A DNA stretch of 32,072 bases. It comes from an uncultured Oscillospiraceae bacterium. GTDB taxonomy: Bacteria; Bacillota; Clostridia; Oscillospirales; Oscillospiraceae. The notes beneath the pieces were generated by a model that worked only from the letters and a program-made list of their open reading frames with translations, was not told where the DNA came from and did not search any database. Shown here in pieces: positions 24,992-31,546 of the stretch. How positions within the stretch are numbered: position 1 is the stretch's first letter; each line of letters opens with the position of its first letter. The position numbers and the translations under genes are program-made. The stretch covers positions 1 to 32,072 of the forward strand of contig CANRFA010000017.1 of assembly GCA_947629775.1 (NCBI GenBank). The letters run 5' to 3'.

Positions 24992-26398
24992 TCAGTTGAG
25001 ACGGACCGTCCGCCCGTTTTTCCGGTAGGACAGGCCGCTGAAGTACTTCGCCGGGTCCGTGCGCGAACCGTTGATGCGCACCTCGAAGTGCAGGTGATAG
25101 CCGGTGGTGCGGCCGGTGAGACCCACGTAGCCCACGACCGTCCCCTGGCTCACGGTGTCGCCCACGCTGACCGCGCGGCTGCCCATGTGGGCATAGAGCG
25201 TGCTGGTCCCGTCGCTGTGGGACACCACCACGTAGTTGCCGTAGGACCAGTAGCCGCCGCTGCCCATACAGGATACGGTCACCACGCCGCTCTTGGCGCA
25301 GTGGATGGGCGTTCCCTTGGGCGCCGGAATGTCAATGCCGGTGTGGGTGGCCGGTTTCCCGGTGATGGGATCCGTCCGCCCGCCGAAGAGGGAGGTCAGG
25401 GTGGTCCTGCCGGGCAGGGGCCAGGCAAAGCTTCCTTCCGACTGGACCGAGGAAATCGACGGCGCCAGCTCCCGCTCCATCCGCCGGATCTCGGAATCCG
25501 CCGCACTGGCGGAACGGCTCAGTTCCGCCTCTTCCGCCTCCAGCTCCTGCTCCGTGGCGCTCACCTGCGCGATCAGCTTCTCCACTTCAGCCTCCTGGCT
25601 CTCCAGTTCCTGCTGGGCGGCAAGCTGTTCCTGCTTCGCCTCTTCCTGGGCCTGCCTGGCGGCCTCCTGCTCCTGTTTCGCCTTCTCCTGCTCCTCCTTG
25701 GCCGTCTGGAGCTCGGCGCGGGCCTGTTCCAGCTGGGCCTGATCTTCCTCCAGGCTGGCCTTCTCCTCGCTGATTGTCTGGCGGAGCTCCTCCAGCTCCT
25801 CCATGATCTCGTTGTCGTAGGCCATGAACTCCCGGACCATCAGCAGGTTGTCCAGCAGATCCGAAAAACTGTCCGAGGAGAAGAGGATGGACCAGTAGGA
25901 GACCTGACCGTGCTCCTCCATCAGCCGCACCCGCTGGCAGAACAGCTCGTAGAGCCGGGCCTCCTTGGCCTCCGTGTCCTCCAGCTGGGACTGCTTGCGG
26001 GCAATCTGCTCCTCAAGGTCGGCGATTCTGTCGTCCAGTTCGGCGATATCCGCCTGCAGAGCGTCAACTTGACTCTGAATGCTGTCAATCTGCGCCTGGA
26101 TGCTTTCGATCCGCTCCTCGATGCTGGCGATGGTCTGCCGGATCAGGTCGATGTCCTCCTCCAGCAGGGCCTTCTGCTCCATCAGCTCGCTCTTCTCCGC
26201 CCGGGCCTCGGCCAGCTTTTCCTGCACGCTCCTGCGCTGCTCCGCCAGGTCCTCGGCCTGCTTTTTCAGTTTGTCGATATCCGCCTGGGTGACGGCCCGG
26301 ACCTCCTCCACCACCGTCACCGGAGACAGGGGCAGCAGCAGAGCCAGCATCACCACAAAGGAAACGATCCGCACCCAGAGGCGCTTCTCTCTCGTCAT
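24992..26398 (-). CDS. M23 peptidoglycan hydrolase, PcsB/CwlO-like, copy 1 (intact)
   Basis: 468 aa from MTREKRLW, which has GGAGGAAG 6 bases upstream; an ATG five codons earlier lacks a site. A signal/anchor helix spans ~10-28. A long coiled coil (~36-320) has Gln/Glu/Ala heptads and the PcsB-type block GQVSYWSILFSSDSFSDLLDN (~164-184). The C-terminal LytM domain is ~325-460 with zinc ligands H352 and D356 (HTGIDIP) and H435-x-H437 (HLHFE), plus H404 in YAHM. Such enzymes cut peptidoglycan cross-bridge peptides and are switched on through the coiled coil by FtsEX. Its promoter carries a WalR-like box. The coiled coil contains an exact copy of the guide predicted for the nearby IscB element (26068-26083). 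Confidence 0.95.
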   Translation of the reverse strand: MTREKRLWVRIVSFVVMLALLLPLSPVTVVEEVRAVTQADIDKLKKQAEDLAEQRRSVQEKLAEARAEKSELMEQKALLEEDIDLIRQTIASIEERIESIQAQIDSIQSQVDALQADIAELDDRIADLEEQIARKQSQLEDTEAKEARLYELFCQRVRLMEEHGQVSYWSILFSSDSFSDLLDNLLMVREFMAYDNEIMEELEELRQTISEEKASLEEDQAQLEQARAELQTAKEEQEKAKQEQEAARQAQEEAKQEQLAAQQELESQEAEVEKLIAQVSATEQELEAEEAELSRSASAADSEIRRMERELAPSISSVQSEGSFAWPLPGRTTLTSLFGGRTDPITGKPATHTGIDIPAPKGTPIHCAKSGVVTVSCMGSGGYWSYGNYVVVSHSDGTSTLYAHMGSRAVSVGDTVSQGTVVGYVGLTGRTTGYHLHFEVRINGSRTDPAKYFSGLSYRKNGRTVRLN

Positions 26399-26479
26399 GG
26401 GTTCTTCCTCCATCCCTGCCGGAGTCTCCCGCGCCCGGGTCCCGCCCGCCCGGTCGCCTCTCCGGCCTTCTCTGCAGAG

Positions 26480-26508
26480 AATCTATCCCTTTTCCGCCTC
26501 CCTGTCAA
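26480..26508 (-). promoter_or_regulatory. Sigma-A promoter of M23 copy 1
   Basis: On the - strand, TTGACA (26503-26508, perfect consensus), a 17-base spacer and TAGATT (26480-26485). The leader is ~75 bases. Confidence 0.88.
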
Positions 26509-26535
26509 GGCCGCGAAGCCCTTCCTGACGGAATA

Positions 26536-26552
26536 TTTACAGAAAAGTTACA
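26536..26552 (-). promoter_or_regulatory. WalR-like box upstream of M23 copy 1
   Basis: On the - strand TGTAAC-TTTTC-TGTAAA, an exact fit to the WalR (YycF) consensus TGTWAH-N5-TGTWAH. It lies ~28 bases upstream of the -35 box, a position suited to activation. WalRK controls wall hydrolases in Firmicutes. Confidence 0.65.
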
Positions 26553-26592
26553 AATGATTACGGCTTTGTCACTTTTGTCTCCTTCGCAGAAG

Positions 26593-26627
26593 AAAAGGGC
26601 ACCGCGCCGGAGAGGACGCGATGCCCT
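26593..26627 (-). terminator. Terminator downstream of M23 copy 2
   Basis: AGGGCA plus CGCG (26596-26606) pair with CGCG-A-TGCCCT (26617-26627), followed on the - strand by TTTTCTTCT. It resembles the terminator of copy 3 (30035-30069), not that of copy 1. Confidence 0.75.
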
Positions 26628-26644
26628 GGAACTGCGAAGCGCGG

Positions 26645-27720
26645 TCAGTTGAGGCGCACGGTCTTGCCGCCCGAGCGCACATAGAGGCCGCTGAAGTAGT
26701 TGACCGGATCTACCCGGGAACCGTTGACGCGGATCTCGAAGTGGAGATGGTTGCCGGTGGAGGAGCCGGTGGAGCCCACCTTGCCCAGCTCCTGGCCCTG
26801 GCTCACGGTGTCGCCCACGCTGACTGCGCGGCTGCCCATGTGAGCATAGAGGGTGCTGGTCCCGTCGCTGTGGGACACCACCACGTAGTTGCCGTAGGAC
26901 CAGTAGCCGCCGCTGCCCATACAGGATACGGTCACCACGCCGCTCTTGGCGCAGTGGATGGGCGTTCCCTTGGGCGCCGGAATGTCAATGCCGGTGTGGG
27001 TGGCCGGTTTCCCGGTGATGGGATCCGTCCGCCCGCCGAAGAGGGAGGTCAGGGTGGTCCTGCCGGGCAGGGGCCAGGCAAAGCTTCCTTCCGACTGGAC
27101 CGAGGAAATCGACGGCGCCAGCTCCCGCTCCATCCGCCGGATCTCGGAATCCGCCGCGCTGGCGGAACGGCTCAGCTCCGCCTCTTCCGCCTCCAGCTCC
27201 TGCTCCGTGGCGCTCACCTGCGCGATCAGCTTCTCCACCTCGGCTTCCTGGTTCTCCAGTTCCTGCTGGGCGGCGAGCTGTTCCTGCTTCGCTTACTCCT
27301 GGGCCTGCCTGGCGGCCTCCTGCTCCTGCTTCGCCGCCTCCTGCTCCTCCTTGGCCGCCTGGAGCTCGGTGCGGGCCTGCTCCAGCTGGGCCTGGTCGTC
27401 CTCCAGACTGGCCTTCTCCTCGCTGATCGTCTGGCGGAGCTCCTCCAGTTCCTCCATGATCTCGTTGTCATAGTCCATGAACTCCCGGACCATCAGGAGG
27501 TTGTCCAGCAGATCCGAAAAACTGTCCGACGAGAAGAGGATGGACCAGTAGGAGACCTGGCCGTGCTCCTCCATCGGCCGCACCCGCTGGCAGAACAGCT
27601 CGTAGAACCGGGCCTCTTTCGCCTCCGTGTCCTCCTGCTGGGACTGCTTGCGGGCGATCTGCTCCTCGAGGTCGGCGATTCTGTCGTCCAGTTCGGCGAT
27701 ATCCGCCTGCAGAGCATCAA
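26645..27720 (-). pseudogene. M23 hydrolase copy 2, 3' fragment (with an in-frame stop)
   Basis: The coding frame resumes at 27720 with DALQADIAELDD exactly where the 5' fragment (ending ...IQSQV) breaks off at the IscB element. It continues through the coiled coil to a TAA at 27293-27295, where copy 1 reads GAA GAG and this copy GAG TAA. From there the same frame continues to 26645 through a complete LytM domain with HTGIDIP and HLHFE ligands; a 197-aa piece could begin at an ATG at 27238 but has no signal peptide or ribosome binding site. The body matches copy 1, but from ~26805 to the stop it matches copy 3 (GQELGKVGSTGSSTGNHLHFEI), so it is a mosaic. Confidence 0.9.
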
Positions 27721-27745
27721 TTTTACCGTATCCAATTCGGTAAAA
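27721..27745. repeat. Terminal palindrome at the iscB-downstream end of the element
   Basis: TTTTACCG (27721-27728) and CGGTAAAA (27738-27745) form a perfect 8-bp inverted repeat around 9 bases, at the very edge of the insertion. Subterminal hairpins of this kind are the recognition structures of HUH (IS200/IS605) transposases. Confidence 0.75.
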
Positions 27746-27768
27746 GCCACGCCCCTTTATGGGGCGGT
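27746..27768 (-). terminator. Hairpin downstream of iscB, possible terminator
   Basis: CGCCCC (27750-27755) and GGGGCG (27761-27766) form a stem with loop TTTAT. On the - strand GTGGC and then TTTT follow, so termination would be imperfect. It may also be part of the element end. Confidence 0.5.
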
Positions 27769-27789
27769 TTTGCGTGCCTCGGCTTGAAC

Positions 27790-29280
27790 TCACAGATAAA
27801 CCAGACCGCCTGTCTGAATGAATCGGCAATCTTCAACCTTGTAGTTGGTCTTTTTGTCCCCTTCCGCACGAATGTATCTCCCGCCCGAAAGCTGTCCGGA
27901 CATGACGTAGCGCTTGCCTTTGTACAGGAAGATGCATCCTGGCAGATACTTGCGTTTCGGGTCATTATAATACCGTTTGGAGGGAACAACCGTAAGCCTG
28001 GAGCAGGTCCTGCGCCGGTCTTCAGGGGGCAGGCTGTTCAGGTAATCCTCAAGGCTGGGACCTTCTTGCTCAAAACGGGCTTTCCGGTTTTTCGCAACCA
28101 CCGTCTTAACCACCTTCTTACCCACCTTTTTAACCAGCATGTAGGTTCGCTCACGCTGGTTGTTGATGATGGCGCGATCATGCCGGCGGTACTGCTTCAC
28201 CTCATAGACAGGGGCATGTCCCGGAACGGGGTTCTGATTGAGGGGAACGGAAGCGATGCACATGGCATCCGTGGGGTGGTCCTTCAGAAGACCGCTGCGT
28301 TCCCGGATGGCCTTGGTATCATAACCGGAGCAGATATGCACATGATCTTCGCCGAAGCGATCTACCAGCCCCTGATAGAGGGCCGGCATGATCTGGTTCA
28401 GAACACTCAGAGCGGCATACTTCTTCTCCCTCCCGATTTTCTGAATACAGAGACGGACTCCCCTGGTGTGGATTTTTGCGTGACAGTCCTTGCACAGGCC
28501 AACCAGGTTTTCCGGGCCATCGAATCCGTTTTTGCTCTGCTCCCGGATATGATGGTAGCATTCGATCGGCTTACCGCAGCAGGGGCACACGCCGCCCTGG
28601 GAGGCCCAGACATACTCCTTGGCATTCCTGAATCCCTTCAGGCGGCCGTTCTGATAGTCTGCGCCGAAAATCGTTCCGTCCTCCATCTTCATGAAGGAGA
28701 AGCGGTTGACCTCCAGCGTCCAGTCTGTCACCGGCAGAATGCCGCAGATTTTGTCTACCATGTTCAGGTGCGTCCGGAGCAACTGCGTCGCCGTGGGGGT
28801 CAGCCACCCCTGCGGGCGCTTGCGGTTGGCAAACCGCGCCTCCGTGTTGATGATGTAGTGATTCTCGATCGGCTTCTCGCAACGGGGAAGAACCCGCGGT
28901 TTCTTCGGAGGATCCGTCACGGTGCCGCACTTTCTGGCCCTCCGCTGCCGCCGCTTCCGCTCTCCCTGCCTGGATGCACTGCGATGGGCAGCACGGTTGC
29001 TCATCAGCTTCGGAATCTCCTTGTTTCTGGTTTCCACATGGTCAACGTACACAACATCTCCGTTTTCCTTCATTACGGAATTTGAAATGTTGGTACGTCC
29101 GGGATCAGTACCTCCGTAGAGGTTCTGAACACAATCCTCGGTTTCATACAGAAGCTGGATGGTAAAGGGCTTCATTTTGACGATCTTTGCCAGCTTGTGA
29201 TCCAACAGGTAACGGACACGGCCGCCCCTGTCCGTAGGCATCAGGCGATTTCCGGTCATGCTCAGCACACTCACATACAT
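27790..29280 (-). CDS. iscB: RNA-guided DNA endonuclease IscB (OgeuIscB-like), complete
   Basis: 496 aa; AAGGAGG lies 8 bases before the ATG at 29280. The N-terminal PLMP domain has NRLMPTDRGGRVRYLL (11-26). RuvC-I is GGTDPGRTNI with D59. The Arg-rich bridge helix is ~95-117 (RRXRR region). RuvC-II is LEVNRFSF with E190. The HNH domain (~230-272) has a CxxC (C232/C235), HHIREQ (H243/H244), N258 and CKDCH (C263, C266, H267). RuvC-III is GYDTKAIRERSGLLKDHPTDA with H335 and D338. The C-terminal ~150 residues form the target/TAM-interacting part. All catalytic residues are present. Segments such as KPFTIQL, ETRNK-PKLM, NRKRP-GWLTPTA and ALSVLNQI-P match the gut metagenomic OgeuIscB as I recall it, which also has 496 residues. 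The protein cuts both DNA strands under omega RNA guidance. Confidence 0.95.
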   Translation of the reverse strand: MYVSVLSMTGNRLMPTDRGGRVRYLLDHKLAKIVKMKPFTIQLLYETEDCVQNLYGGTDPGRTNISNSVMKENGDVVYVDHVETRNKEIPKLMSNRAAHRSASRQGERKRRQRRARKCGTVTDPPKKPRVLPRCEKPIENHYIINTEARFANRKRPQGWLTPTATQLLRTHLNMVDKICGILPVTDWTLEVNRFSFMKMEDGTIFGADYQNGRLKGFRNAKEYVWASQGGVCPCCGKPIECYHHIREQSKNGFDGPENLVGLCKDCHAKIHTRGVRLCIQKIGREKKYAALSVLNQIMPALYQGLVDRFGEDHVHICSGYDTKAIRERSGLLKDHPTDAMCIASVPLNQNPVPGHAPVYEVKQYRRHDRAIINNQRERTYMLVKKVGKKVVKTVVAKNRKARFEQEGPSLEDYLNSLPPEDRRRTCSRLTVVPSKRYYNDPKRKYLPGCIFLYKGKRYVMSGQLSGGRYIRAEGDKKTNYKVEDCRFIQTGGLVYL

Positions 29281-29304
29281 CTCTGACACCTCCTTTGAAT
29301 AAAG

Positions 29305-29526
29305 TATGGTAAATCACCGCCCCGAAGGCGGGTAGGATTCCCGAGGCTCAAGACCCCCGAGGGGGTCCGGGCACCACTAAGCAGGGTCCGAAGCTGGAAA
29401 AACCCCGGAGTGCCCAGGTGTCACGCCTCTGCTCAAATCAGCACATGTCGTCAGACGGTAGCCTGTCAGGGCGAACCATAACAAGCCCCTTGCCTTCAGA
29501 TATGGGGTAACTTGACTCTGAATGCT
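29305..29526 (-). ncRNA. Putative omega RNA of IscB (16-nt guide from the flank + ~206-nt scaffold)
   Basis: Between the element edge (29510) and the iscB ribosome binding site lies a highly structured, non-coding region. Stems seen: CCGCC/GGCGG (29317-29331), GACCCCC/GGGGGTC (29352-29367), a long-range GGGCAC (29369-29374) with GTGCCC (29410-29415), and an inner GGGT/ACCC. IscB omega RNAs lie directly upstream of iscB with the guide at their 5' end, taken from the flanking DNA. Here the guide would be the M23 sequence at 29511-29526 (- strand AGCATTCAGAGTCAAG). The exact ends are inferred from known omega RNA length, not measured. Confidence 0.75.
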
Positions 29527-29841
29527 GTCAATCTGCGCCTGGATGCTTTCGATCCGCTCCTCAATGCTGGCGATGGTCTGCTGAATCAGGTCGATGTCCT
29601 CTTCCAGCAGGGCCTTCTGATCCATCAGCTCGCTCTTCTCCGCCCGGGCCTCGGCCAGCTTCTCCTGTACGCTCCTGCGCTGATCCGCCAGGTCCTCGGC
29701 CTTCTTTTTCAGCTTGTCGATATCCGCCTGGGTGACGGCCTGGACCTCTTCCACCACCGTCACCGGAGACAGGGGCAACAGCAGAGCCAGCACCACCGCA
29801 AAGGAAACGATCCGCACCCAGAGGCGCTTCTCTCTCGTCAT
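29377..29841 (-). pseudogene. M23 hydrolase copy 2, 5' fragment
   Basis: From the ATG at 29841 (GGAGGAAG upstream) 111 native residues remain: signal/anchor helix and the first coiled-coil segment, near-identical to copy 1. At the insertion point after SIQSQV the frame runs into the element and adds 43 foreign residues before stopping at 29377. No catalytic domain is left. The promoter, WalR-like box and ribosome binding site are intact, so the fragment is probably still transcribed, and ribosomes would enter the omega RNA scaffold. Confidence 0.88.
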
Positions 29842-29922
29842 GGGTTCTTCCTCCATCCCTGCCGGAGTCTCCCGCGCCCGGGTCCCGCCCGCCCGGTCGC
29901 CTCTCCGGCCTTCTCTGCAGAG

Positions 29923-29951
29923 AATCTATCCCTTTTCCGCCTCCCTGTCAA
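29923..29951 (-). promoter_or_regulatory. Sigma-A promoter of M23 copy 2, likely also driving the IscB omega RNA
   Basis: TTGACA (29946-29951), 17 bases and TAGATT (29923-29928) on the - strand, identical to copy 1. It reads through the 5' fragment into the omega RNA and iscB. Confidence 0.87.
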
Positions 29952-29978
29952 GGCCGCGAAGCCCTTCCTGACGGAATA

Positions 29979-29995
29979 TTTACAGAAAAGTTACA
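29979..29995 (-). promoter_or_regulatory. WalR-like box upstream of M23 copy 2
   Basis: TGTAAC-TTTTC-TGTAAA on the - strand, same consensus fit and same distance from the -35 box as in copy 1. Confidence 0.65.
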
Positions 29996-30034
29996 AACGG
30001 TTACGGCCGTGTCATTTTTCCTTCTGCGCGGAAG

Positions 30035-30069
30035 GAAAGGGCACCGCGCCGGAGATGGCGCGATGCCCT
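30035..30069 (-). terminator. Terminator of M23 copy 3
   Basis: AGGGCA-CCGCGCC (30038-30050) pairs imperfectly with GGCGCGA-TGCCCT (30057-30069). On the - strand TTTCCTTCC follows, a weak T-rich tail. Confidence 0.7.
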
Positions 30070-30088
30070 GAAACTGTGAAGCGCGCGG

Positions 30089-31534
30089 TCAGTTGAGGCG
30101 CACGGTCTTGCCGCCCGAGCGCACATACAGGCCGCTGAAGTAGTTGACCGGATCCACCCGGGAGCCGTTGACCCGGATCTCGAAGTGGAGATGGTTGCCG
30201 GTGGAGGAGCCGGTGGAACCCACCTTGCCCAGCTCCTGGCCCTGGCTTACGGACTGTCCCACGCTCACGGAGCGGCTGCTCATGTGGGCGTAGAGGGTGC
30301 TGGTGCCATCGCTGTGGGAGACCACCACGTAGTTGCCGTAGGAGGGGCCCCGCATGGAGATGGTCACGATGCCGCTCTTGGCGCACTTGATGCTGGTGCC
30401 GTAGGCGGCGGGGATATCGATTCCGGTGTGGTTGTTTGGCTTGCCGGTAATGGGATGGATCCGGCCGCCGAACAGGGAGGAGAGGGTGGTCTTGCCGGGC
30501 AGGGGCCAGGAGAAGCTGCCCTCCGCCTTTACGCTGGAGATCTTGGGCGCCAGCTCCTTCTCCATCTGCTTGATTTTCGCGTCCGCGCTGGCGGCGGCCT
30601 GCTTCAGGGCGGACTCCTCCGCCTGCAGCTGCTGCTCCGTGACGCTGATCTCATTGATCAGCTTCTGGACCTCCGCCTCCTGGCTCTCCAGGTCCTGCTG
30701 GGCGCTGACCTGTTCCTGTTTGGCCGCTTCCTGTTCCCGCATGGCCTCTTCCTGGGCCGCCTTGGCGGCCTCCTGCTCCCGTTTGGCGGCCTCCTGTTCC
30801 TCTCTGGCCGCCTGCAGGTCCTTGCGGGCCTGCTCCAGCTGGGAGCGGATCTCTTCCAGGTCCGCCTTCTGGGAACGGATCGTCTCCTGGAGCTCCTGCA
30901 GGTCCTCCATGATCTCGTTGTCGTAGTCCATGAATTCCCGGACCATCAGGATATTATCCAGCAGGTCGGAAAAACTGTCCGAGGAGAAGAGGATGGACCA
31001 GTAGGAAACCTGGCCGTGCTCCTCCATCAGCCGCACCCGCTCGCAGAAGAGCTCGTAGAGCTGAGCCTCTTCCGCCTCCGCTTCCTCCAGCTCCTTCTGT
31101 TTTTCGTCGATCAGTGCGATGTACTCCTCGATCTCCTTATCCTTGTCCGCGATCTGGCCGTCCAGGTCCGCGATCTTATCCTGAATGCTGCTGATCTGCC
31201 CCTGGATGCCCGTGATTTTGTCCTGGATCCCCGAGATCCGATCCTGGATGCTGGCGATGGTCTGCTGAATGAGGTCGATATCGTCCTCCAGCAGCCCCTT
31301 CTGGTCGGTCAGCTCGCTCTTCTCCGCCCGGGCCTTCGCCAGTTTGCTCTGCACTTCCTTGCGCTGACTGGCCAGACTGGCGGACTCCTTCTTCAGCTTG
31401 TCGATGTCCGCCTGGGTCACCGCCGAAACCGGATCCACCAGACTGACCGGAGACAGCGGGATCAGCAGAGCCAGAACCAGAACGAGGGGAACCAGCCGCA
31501 GCCACCCGTGTTTTTTCCGCTTCAGAAACCTCAT
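30089..31534 (-). CDS. M23 peptidoglycan hydrolase, PcsB/CwlO-like, copy 3 (intact)
   Basis: 481 aa from ATG 31534, with GGGGGT close upstream; a TTG at 31546 would add four residues. Residues ~12-38 are a signal/anchor helix after a basic start (RFLKRKKHGWLR). A coiled coil at ~40-335 contains heptads with repeated SIQDKI/GIQDKI units and the GQVSYWSILFSSDSFSDLLDN block. The LytM domain at ~345-478 has HTGIDIP and HLHFE zinc ligands. It is the most divergent of the three copies in the coiled coil and probably the ancestral one, because it sits directly behind ftsX and the 34-aa peptide. No separate promoter was found, so it is likely expressed with ftsX, fitting FtsEX-dependent activation at division. 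Confidence 0.95.
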   Translation of the reverse strand: MRFLKRKKHGWLRLVPLVLVLALLIPLSPVSLVDPVSAVTQADIDKLKKESASLASQRKEVQSKLAKARAEKSELTDQKGLLEDDIDLIQQTIASIQDRISGIQDKITGIQGQISSIQDKIADLDGQIADKDKEIEEYIALIDEKQKELEEAEAEEAQLYELFCERVRLMEEHGQVSYWSILFSSDSFSDLLDNILMVREFMDYDNEIMEDLQELQETIRSQKADLEEIRSQLEQARKDLQAAREEQEAAKREQEAAKAAQEEAMREQEAAKQEQVSAQQDLESQEAEVQKLINEISVTEQQLQAEESALKQAAASADAKIKQMEKELAPKISSVKAEGSFSWPLPGKTTLSSLFGGRIHPITGKPNNHTGIDIPAAYGTSIKCAKSGIVTISMRGPSYGNYVVVSHSDGTSTLYAHMSSRSVSVGQSVSQGQELGKVGSTGSSTGNHLHFEIRVNGSRVDPVNYFSGLYVRSGGKTVRLN

Positions 31535-31546
31535 AGTAACCCCCAA

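Follow-up and report, generated by a model that had tools for sequence, protein, structure and literature searches.

According to the accessible excerpts of its report (PMC13180657), OrufIscB recognizes the TAM NTAAA, its variants being ATAAA with a single change and lying within NWRRN. The TAM of OgeuIscB is given as NNRR in the corresponding excerpts of PMC9640706, where mismatches at guide positions 1–14 are described to abolish cutting and a pyrimidine at TAM position 3 is suggested, by modelling, to clash with the protein. For the TnpB nucleases, the available text of PMC8612924 states that ISDra2 TnpB cuts the emptied site and proposes that the element is restored by repair; that of PMC11870625 presents TnpB as a gene drive on plasmids. 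How RNA-guided transposon nucleases spare paralogous DNA in the same cell is not addressed in the portions of the IscB and TnpB literature consulted. Likewise, among the papers listed on IscB, TAM and HEARO, no title or abstract opening mentions an IscB with paralogous targets, which is no proof of absence.

The locus described here lies in a 32,072-bp stretch of DNA from an uncultured Oscillospiraceae bacterium (contig CANRFA010000017.1; the window), in which three genes for M23 peptidases stand in tandem on the minus strand (24992–31546); all window features given below are on that strand. Copy 1 (24992–26413, 473 aa, PF01551 and PF24568) and copy 3 (30089–31546, 485 aa, assigned by domain match) are intact. 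Copy 2 is divided into a 5′ part (29517–29856) and a 3′ part (26645–27726) by an IscB–omega RNA element of 1790 bp (27727–29516) that has the same sense as the gene. The left end of the element was set from the guide-adaptor helix P1 and position 1 of the HEARO model, and the right end from colinearity with copy 1. Taken as a whole, we regard it as likely that an IscB element sits in copy 2 with a guide whose register is set by P1 and an NTAAA-like TAM, and that copy 1 escapes it.

Copy 2 is a pseudogene twice over, in that a premature stop in its 3′ part (27293–27295) is independent of the IscB insertion. Its 3′ end resembles copy 3: the last 153 nt (26645–26797) equal copy 3 (30089–30241) at 148 places and copy 1 at 105, and 28 of the 31 codons that differ from copy 1 are the codons of copy 3. 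This pattern points to gene conversion or unequal crossing-over within the M23 array.

The iscB gene (27790–29289) encodes 499 aa with RRXRR and HNH domains and intact RuvC and HNH motifs, and its product scores 204.8 bits against NF040563, above the NCBI cutoff of 175. Asp62, Glu193, His246, His247, His338 and Asp341 are invariant in an alignment of four sequences, and the catalytic residues of the split RuvC and of the HNH domain are also kept in a pairwise comparison with OgeuIscB. Both OrufIscB and OgeuIscB are homologues, the former being the top-scoring relative with a solved structure. As in the IS200/IS605 class, the insertion has produced no target duplication, the rejoined flanks giving 1422 nt, the length of copy 1, with no indel. 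All open reading frames of at least 80 aa inside the element overlap iscB, and the element appears to lack a Y1 transposase gene (tnpA). Ends of the TIR or serine-recombinase type, for which a weak TTACC similarity and a 2-bp TT overlap were seen by eye, were rejected for this element because the reading with P1 and NTAAA accounts for both ends.

A putative HEARO-like omega RNA scaffold (29309–29516) would begin with G1 at 29516. It aligns with positions 1–211 of RF02033, position 1 falling on 29516 (E=0.0053), at 24.1 bits, below the gathering score of 83; at the gathering score, the Rfam search of the window gave no HEARO match. The 5′ strand of P1, UCAAGUUA (29508–29515), pairs with the 3′ strand UGAUUUGA (29433–29440), which is followed by GCAGAG and was chosen by eye from the GCAG. 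All eight pairs form (six Watson-Crick, two G-U), and none of 238 places scores better. Full pairing by chance would be expected for 0.1% of random 8-mers, or in 1.6% of cases if the host had supplied only TCAAG. The cmscan alignment of HEARO pairs a different 3′ strand, which we take for a misalignment because [GA]CAG directly follows P1 in 9 of 12 RNAs with P1, as it does here. Minimum-energy folds from RNAfold did not give the HEARO fold for the omega RNA and were not used. The 16 bases just upstream of G1, ATTGACAGCATTCAGA (29517–29532), are coding DNA of copy 2 and constitute the predicted guide; they are identical to 26074–26089 of copy 1.

Omega RNA starts and P1 strands were also placed by eye in relatives (loci with L numbers). 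Among 14 placed starts, P1 is complete in 10 (the window, L023, L025, L062, L097, L012, L018, L027, L028 and L030), of which L027, L028 and L030 are three copies from one genome bin and not independent; in two others it is interrupted at one or two pairs (L093, second RNA of L023), and L092 and L024 form no P1. This count leaves out L019/L029, L031, L094, L095 and L096, where no start was placed; in L098 no suitable frame was found. L025, L062 and the second RNA of L023 have HEARO matches that start at GTCAA, and a weak match in L029 starts at GACAA; the main omega RNA of L023 gave none, nor did most other relatives searched. In L023, a strong HEARO RNA (E=2.7e-29, L023:192-416) stands before a 449-aa IscB-like gene with DTGY; this gene and another IscB have their starts 2.5 kb apart. 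The relative L093 has inverted ends, GGCTCTTCCAACTT/AAGTTGGAAGAGCC, and an 8-bp duplication, ATATTAGG. Its P1 starts at element base 2, and therefore G1 is the first base. The duplication is followed by AAAGGA, which fits NWRRNA.

A left end at 29516 places the right end at 27727, next to the host flank GTAAAATTGATG. Given this G1, colinearity with copy 1 yields a TAM-side flank of GTAAAA (27721–27726), which fits both NTAAA and NWRRNA; the fit to NTAAA was noticed only once the left end was fixed. The TAM side is placed 3′ of the target from GTAAAA in the right flank and GTCAAG beside the guide, with the motif itself drawn from relatives. NTAAA is rare in this GC-rich window, at 43 of 64,144 positions on both strands (0.067%), and NWRRNA, as the OgeuIscB TAM is also written, occurs at 1074 of them. 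The right-flank codons AAA-ATT (K-I) resemble AAG-ATC (K-I) in copy 3, while copy 1 has CAA-GTT (Q-V). Because the codons of copy 3 give the same K-I, the right flank GTAAAATT seems to be host DNA, and the derived state seems to be that of copy 1. A palindrome, TTTTACCG-9-CGGTAAAA, spans the TAM-side junction (27721–27745); in one of its arms, the element contributes two letters and the host flank the other six.

In the relatives, NTAAA follows a terminal hairpin in L023, L025, L062, L092 and L097; as these right ends were placed by searching for NTAAA, they are not independent and serve as illustration, not as a test. No NTAAA was found within 150 bases of the iscB stop in L024 or L012. When the flanks are rejoined, the upstream frames stop within one codon in L023 and L097 and run on for five residues in L062, and no open frame results for L092 rejoined at NTAAA; as NTAAA itself contains TAA, the frame alone is informative here. 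Empty sites of L062, L092, L093 and L097 were sought through their flanks, and none was found.

A different placement of the junction had been made in the initial annotation. Its recognition of an IscB element that draws its guide from the 5′ flank agrees with the NF040563 match and with a predicted guide directly upstream of G1. It had further reported that the flank is identical to copy 1 at 26068–26083 and for more than 50 bases in all; both statements are borne out by an identity of 54 bases (26066–26119 against 29509–29562) whose first difference is at 26120. The hexamers that it had read beyond the junction, TTGACG in copy 1 (26062–26067) and TTGATG in the interrupted copy (27715–27720), are also as described. 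This placement gives a guide ending in ...AGTCAAG and TTGATG/TTGACG as the TAM, and the annotation had left two outcomes for copy 1: being cut, which would favour homing, or being protected by the one-base change. Two excisions are in fact possible, (a) 27721–29510, as in that annotation, and (b) 27727–29516, as preferred here, and both leave 1422 nt with no indels. The differences from copy 1 number 100 for (a) and 102 for (b), and 1 versus 3 in the 12 bases after the guide; the GTCAAGTT of the left junction is also present in copy 1, and parsimony therefore slightly favours (a). Moreover, copy 1 is the sole place in the genome with a mismatch-free CATTCAGAGTCAAG followed by NNRR, the element’s own locus differing at the TAM; with up to three mismatches, this 14-mer plus NNRR has 29 sites, and a backwards-pattern control 32. 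Against (a), the outer P1 helix is lost, the pairing being poor when the scaffold starts there. Neither TTGATG nor TTGACG fits NTAAA or NWRRNA; both fit NWRRN, and equally so, as they differ at its open fifth position, but the OrufIscB variants carry a single change, whereas TTGAT and TTGAC are two positions off NTAAA. The guide RNA would end in ...CAUUCAGA under (b) and in ...GUCAAG under (a). The codons of copy 3 likewise contradict (a), by marking GTAAAATT as host DNA. We consider boundary (a), with copy 1 cuttable and a target for homing, improbable. Boundary (b) is supported, at the level of sequence, by P1, the HEARO start, the NTAAA right flank and the K-I codons common with copy 3; an uninterrupted copy 2 reading GTCAAGTTGATG would contradict it.

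Under the preferred boundary (b), GTCAAG (29511–29516), previously assigned to the host and to the guide end, belongs to the 5′ strand of the guide-adaptor helix in the omega RNA. TTGATG, proposed as the TAM, loses that role, as the junction lies six bases away and TTGACG begins six bases beyond it; the synonymous T/C change that had been proposed as a possible protection of copy 1 is the 11th base beyond the guide and should not matter. That the intact paralogue carries a full match to the guide holds in the shifted register (16/16 at 26074–26089). Equally, the idea that the TAM decides the fate of copy 1 survives, with GTAAAA/GTCAAG rather than TTGATG/TTGACG as the deciding pair. A heptad argument for GTCAAG as host DNA was dropped, since both boundaries keep the same length and it cannot separate them; for the record, a coiled-coil stretch is present in 24 of 29 orthologue loci (L033–L061), all 24 being shorter than copy 1 by 28 residues, a multiple of seven. 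More generally, relying on a paralogue alone may misplace a guide register, and P1 ought to be taken into account.

At the guide match of copy 1 (26074–26089), the TAM position reads GTCAAG (26068–26073), which fits none of NNRR, NWRRN and NTAAA. Copy 1 is probably not cut, because GTCAAG has a pyrimidine at the third TAM position. Furthermore, the guide and the eight bases after it, GTCAAGTT, are identical at copy 1 and at the element’s own left flank; in the preferred register, cutting of copy 1 would thus entail cutting of the IscB’s own locus. In this register, the homing into copy 1 that had been suggested as possible is not expected at present, the guide match there being accompanied by GTCAAG and not by a functional TAM; an attempt in the past is conceivable. 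The equivalent site of copy 3 (31174–31195) is ATCAGCAGCATTCAGG followed by the TAM-like ATAAGA, and it mismatches the guide at positions 1, 12, 13 and 14 from the TAM, counted by eye. In the genome’s own assembly (95% complete), no site matches the 14-nt guide plus NNRR without mismatch. There are 77 sites with up to three mismatches (2 with one, 8 with two and 67 with three; 20 sites for a backwards-pattern control); the two one-mismatch sites lie in copy 1 and in the element’s own flank and owe their mismatch to the C at position 3 of the TAM.

The sequence of copy 1 bears on the way in which its TAM was lost. Its GTCAAGTT is identical to the eight bases with which the element begins, and six of these eight letters are common to GTAAAATT. 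The other two letters are derived in copy 1, copies 2 and 3 agreeing there, and both match the element. Copies 2 and 3 agree at 691 sites, at 24 of which copy 1 has a derived change; among 166 A sites, A>C is found at 2 and A>G at 4, the two TAM-site changes included. With these two left out, A>C occurs once and A>G three times at 165 A sites, which puts the chance of both at ~1e-4.

We lean towards ordinary point mutations, fixed either by drift before the element arrived or by selection against cutting. They call for no special event, and copy 1 does have its 24 derived changes in 691 comparable sites. Drift before arrival would also be why the element entered copy 2: in the available text of PMC8612924, ISDra2 and IS608 insert only beside their own motif, which copy 1 is without. 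What point mutations leave unexplained is that both new letters equal the element’s end. This is accounted for at once if GTCAAGTT in copy 1 is the footprint, or scar, of an IscB-driven event that removed the TAM and immunised copy 1. Such an event could have taken either of two routes. Copy 1, then reading GTAAAATT, might have been cut and repaired from copy 2, with the first bases of the element copied and the break rejoined at TT; or the element might once have been in copy 1, from which a deletion joining the near-repeats GTCAAGTT and GTAAAATT removed it. The M23 copies do recombine, as the copy 3 codons at the 3′ end of copy 2 attest, and the value of ~1e-4 speaks for a scar, albeit reckoned after the fact for a coincidence that was itself noticed after the fact. 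However, with six of the eight letters already in agreement, two substitutions suffice, and the genus search, with one genome per species, revealed no strain with the earlier state among the matches listed. We judge a scar rather unlikely. Were it true, footprints would immunise their target automatically, because the element’s own end is no TAM, and IscB elements would leave scarred, self-protected paralogues behind.

In its own genome, the element is present in one copy; six other matches, of 24–46% identity, fall in three other, distant IscB-like genes, L002 (G000:C18), L003 (G000:C120) and L004 (G000:C124), with stop-to-stop frames of 562, 513 and 597 aa. At the RuvC-I motif, L003 and L004 have DTGY, and L002 has DPGA, in place of DPGR. 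A nearly full-length relative is found in one other genome of the 64 in the genus (L012, 47%). At E up to 1e-60, relatives besides the own genome occur in 2 of 400 sampled genomes of the family, 0 of 394 of the order and 1 of 391 of the class. The search of genome_contigs gave 0 loci with the protein query alone and 9 with an alignment query; the searches of viral_contigs gave 3 distant loci, then 1 and 6. Plasmids held no relative at 1e-40, and the four phage records all have <34% identity. No other copies of the element ends were found in the genus, where the matches besides the own locus span only 17–37 bases. Copy 1 itself has matches in 61 of the 64 genus genomes, the own genome included. 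Among the matches listed, with one genome per species, none outside the own genome exceeds 86% identity to copy 1, and neither an empty site nor the element in copy 1 was seen in related genomes.

The IscB elements of L093 and L012 end in inverted repeats, GGCTCTTCC.../GGCTATTCC..., which resemble ISL3-type ends; no target duplication was seen for L012, unlike the 8 bp of L093. This suggests that different transposases move IscB genes. In a genome of the same family, the IscB of L018 has flanks as in L026. In Lapin-023 bin47, L027, L028 and L030 are ~98% identical over 1.5 kb, and two of their three pairs share 87–90% identity in the rest. The three copies have different flanks and, as judged by eye, near-inverted ends. 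They appear to be a recently active family.

Expression, TAM preference, cutting and mobility of the present element are what we infer in the following scheme. An IS200/IS605-like IscB element without its own transposase would have inserted between ...ATTGACAGCATTCAGA and GTAAAATTGATG. Its omega RNA would take the upstream flank as guide, and cutting would need an NTAAA-like TAM 3′ of the target, so that the element’s own locus would be safe, guide and TAM being 1790 bp apart. If the element left copy 2, the guide match and GTAAAA would be rejoined and the site cut, which, by analogy with TnpB, would favour recopying. Copy 1 would escape with a guide match but GTCAAG for the TAM, and copy 3 would present a TAM-like site beside a mismatched guide. 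In addition, copy 1, which holds neither the element nor a TAM, could act as a repair template for a cut copy 2, and tandem paralogues may thus help the host to shed the element. Each of the three tandem paralogues is predicted to escape in a different way: one is occupied, one has lost the TAM and one mismatches the guide. Since copy 1 agrees with copy 2 throughout the guide but not at the TAM, the pair would offer a natural measure of TAM stringency.

Among the described systems, the NTAAA TAM of OrufIscB, as given in the excerpts of PMC13180657, fits GTAAAA here, and the C-terminal stretches of the two proteins are similar (GKRYVMSGQLSGGRY / GKRYVMTGQITNGKYY), although the chain in PDB 9nvu is an engineered chimera. 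The OgeuIscB–omega RNA complex (PDB 7xht), in the part of PMC9640706 consulted, has the same domain order and catalytic residues and likewise a guide directly before G1 of the guide-adaptor hairpin, but its TAM is NNRR there, whereas NTAAA is predicted here. HEARO (RF02033) shares the start at GUCAA and the place 5′ of an HNH gene, differing in the low score of the present RNA relative to the gathering score. ISDra2 TnpB, as far as the available text of PMC8612924 goes, is alike in using the flank for its guide and in having the insertion motif for a TAM, which confines cutting to the emptied site; unlike the present element, it takes its guide from the right end, has its TAM 5′ of the target and carries tnpA in the element. 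The system is thus of a known kind, and its natural arrangement is informative.
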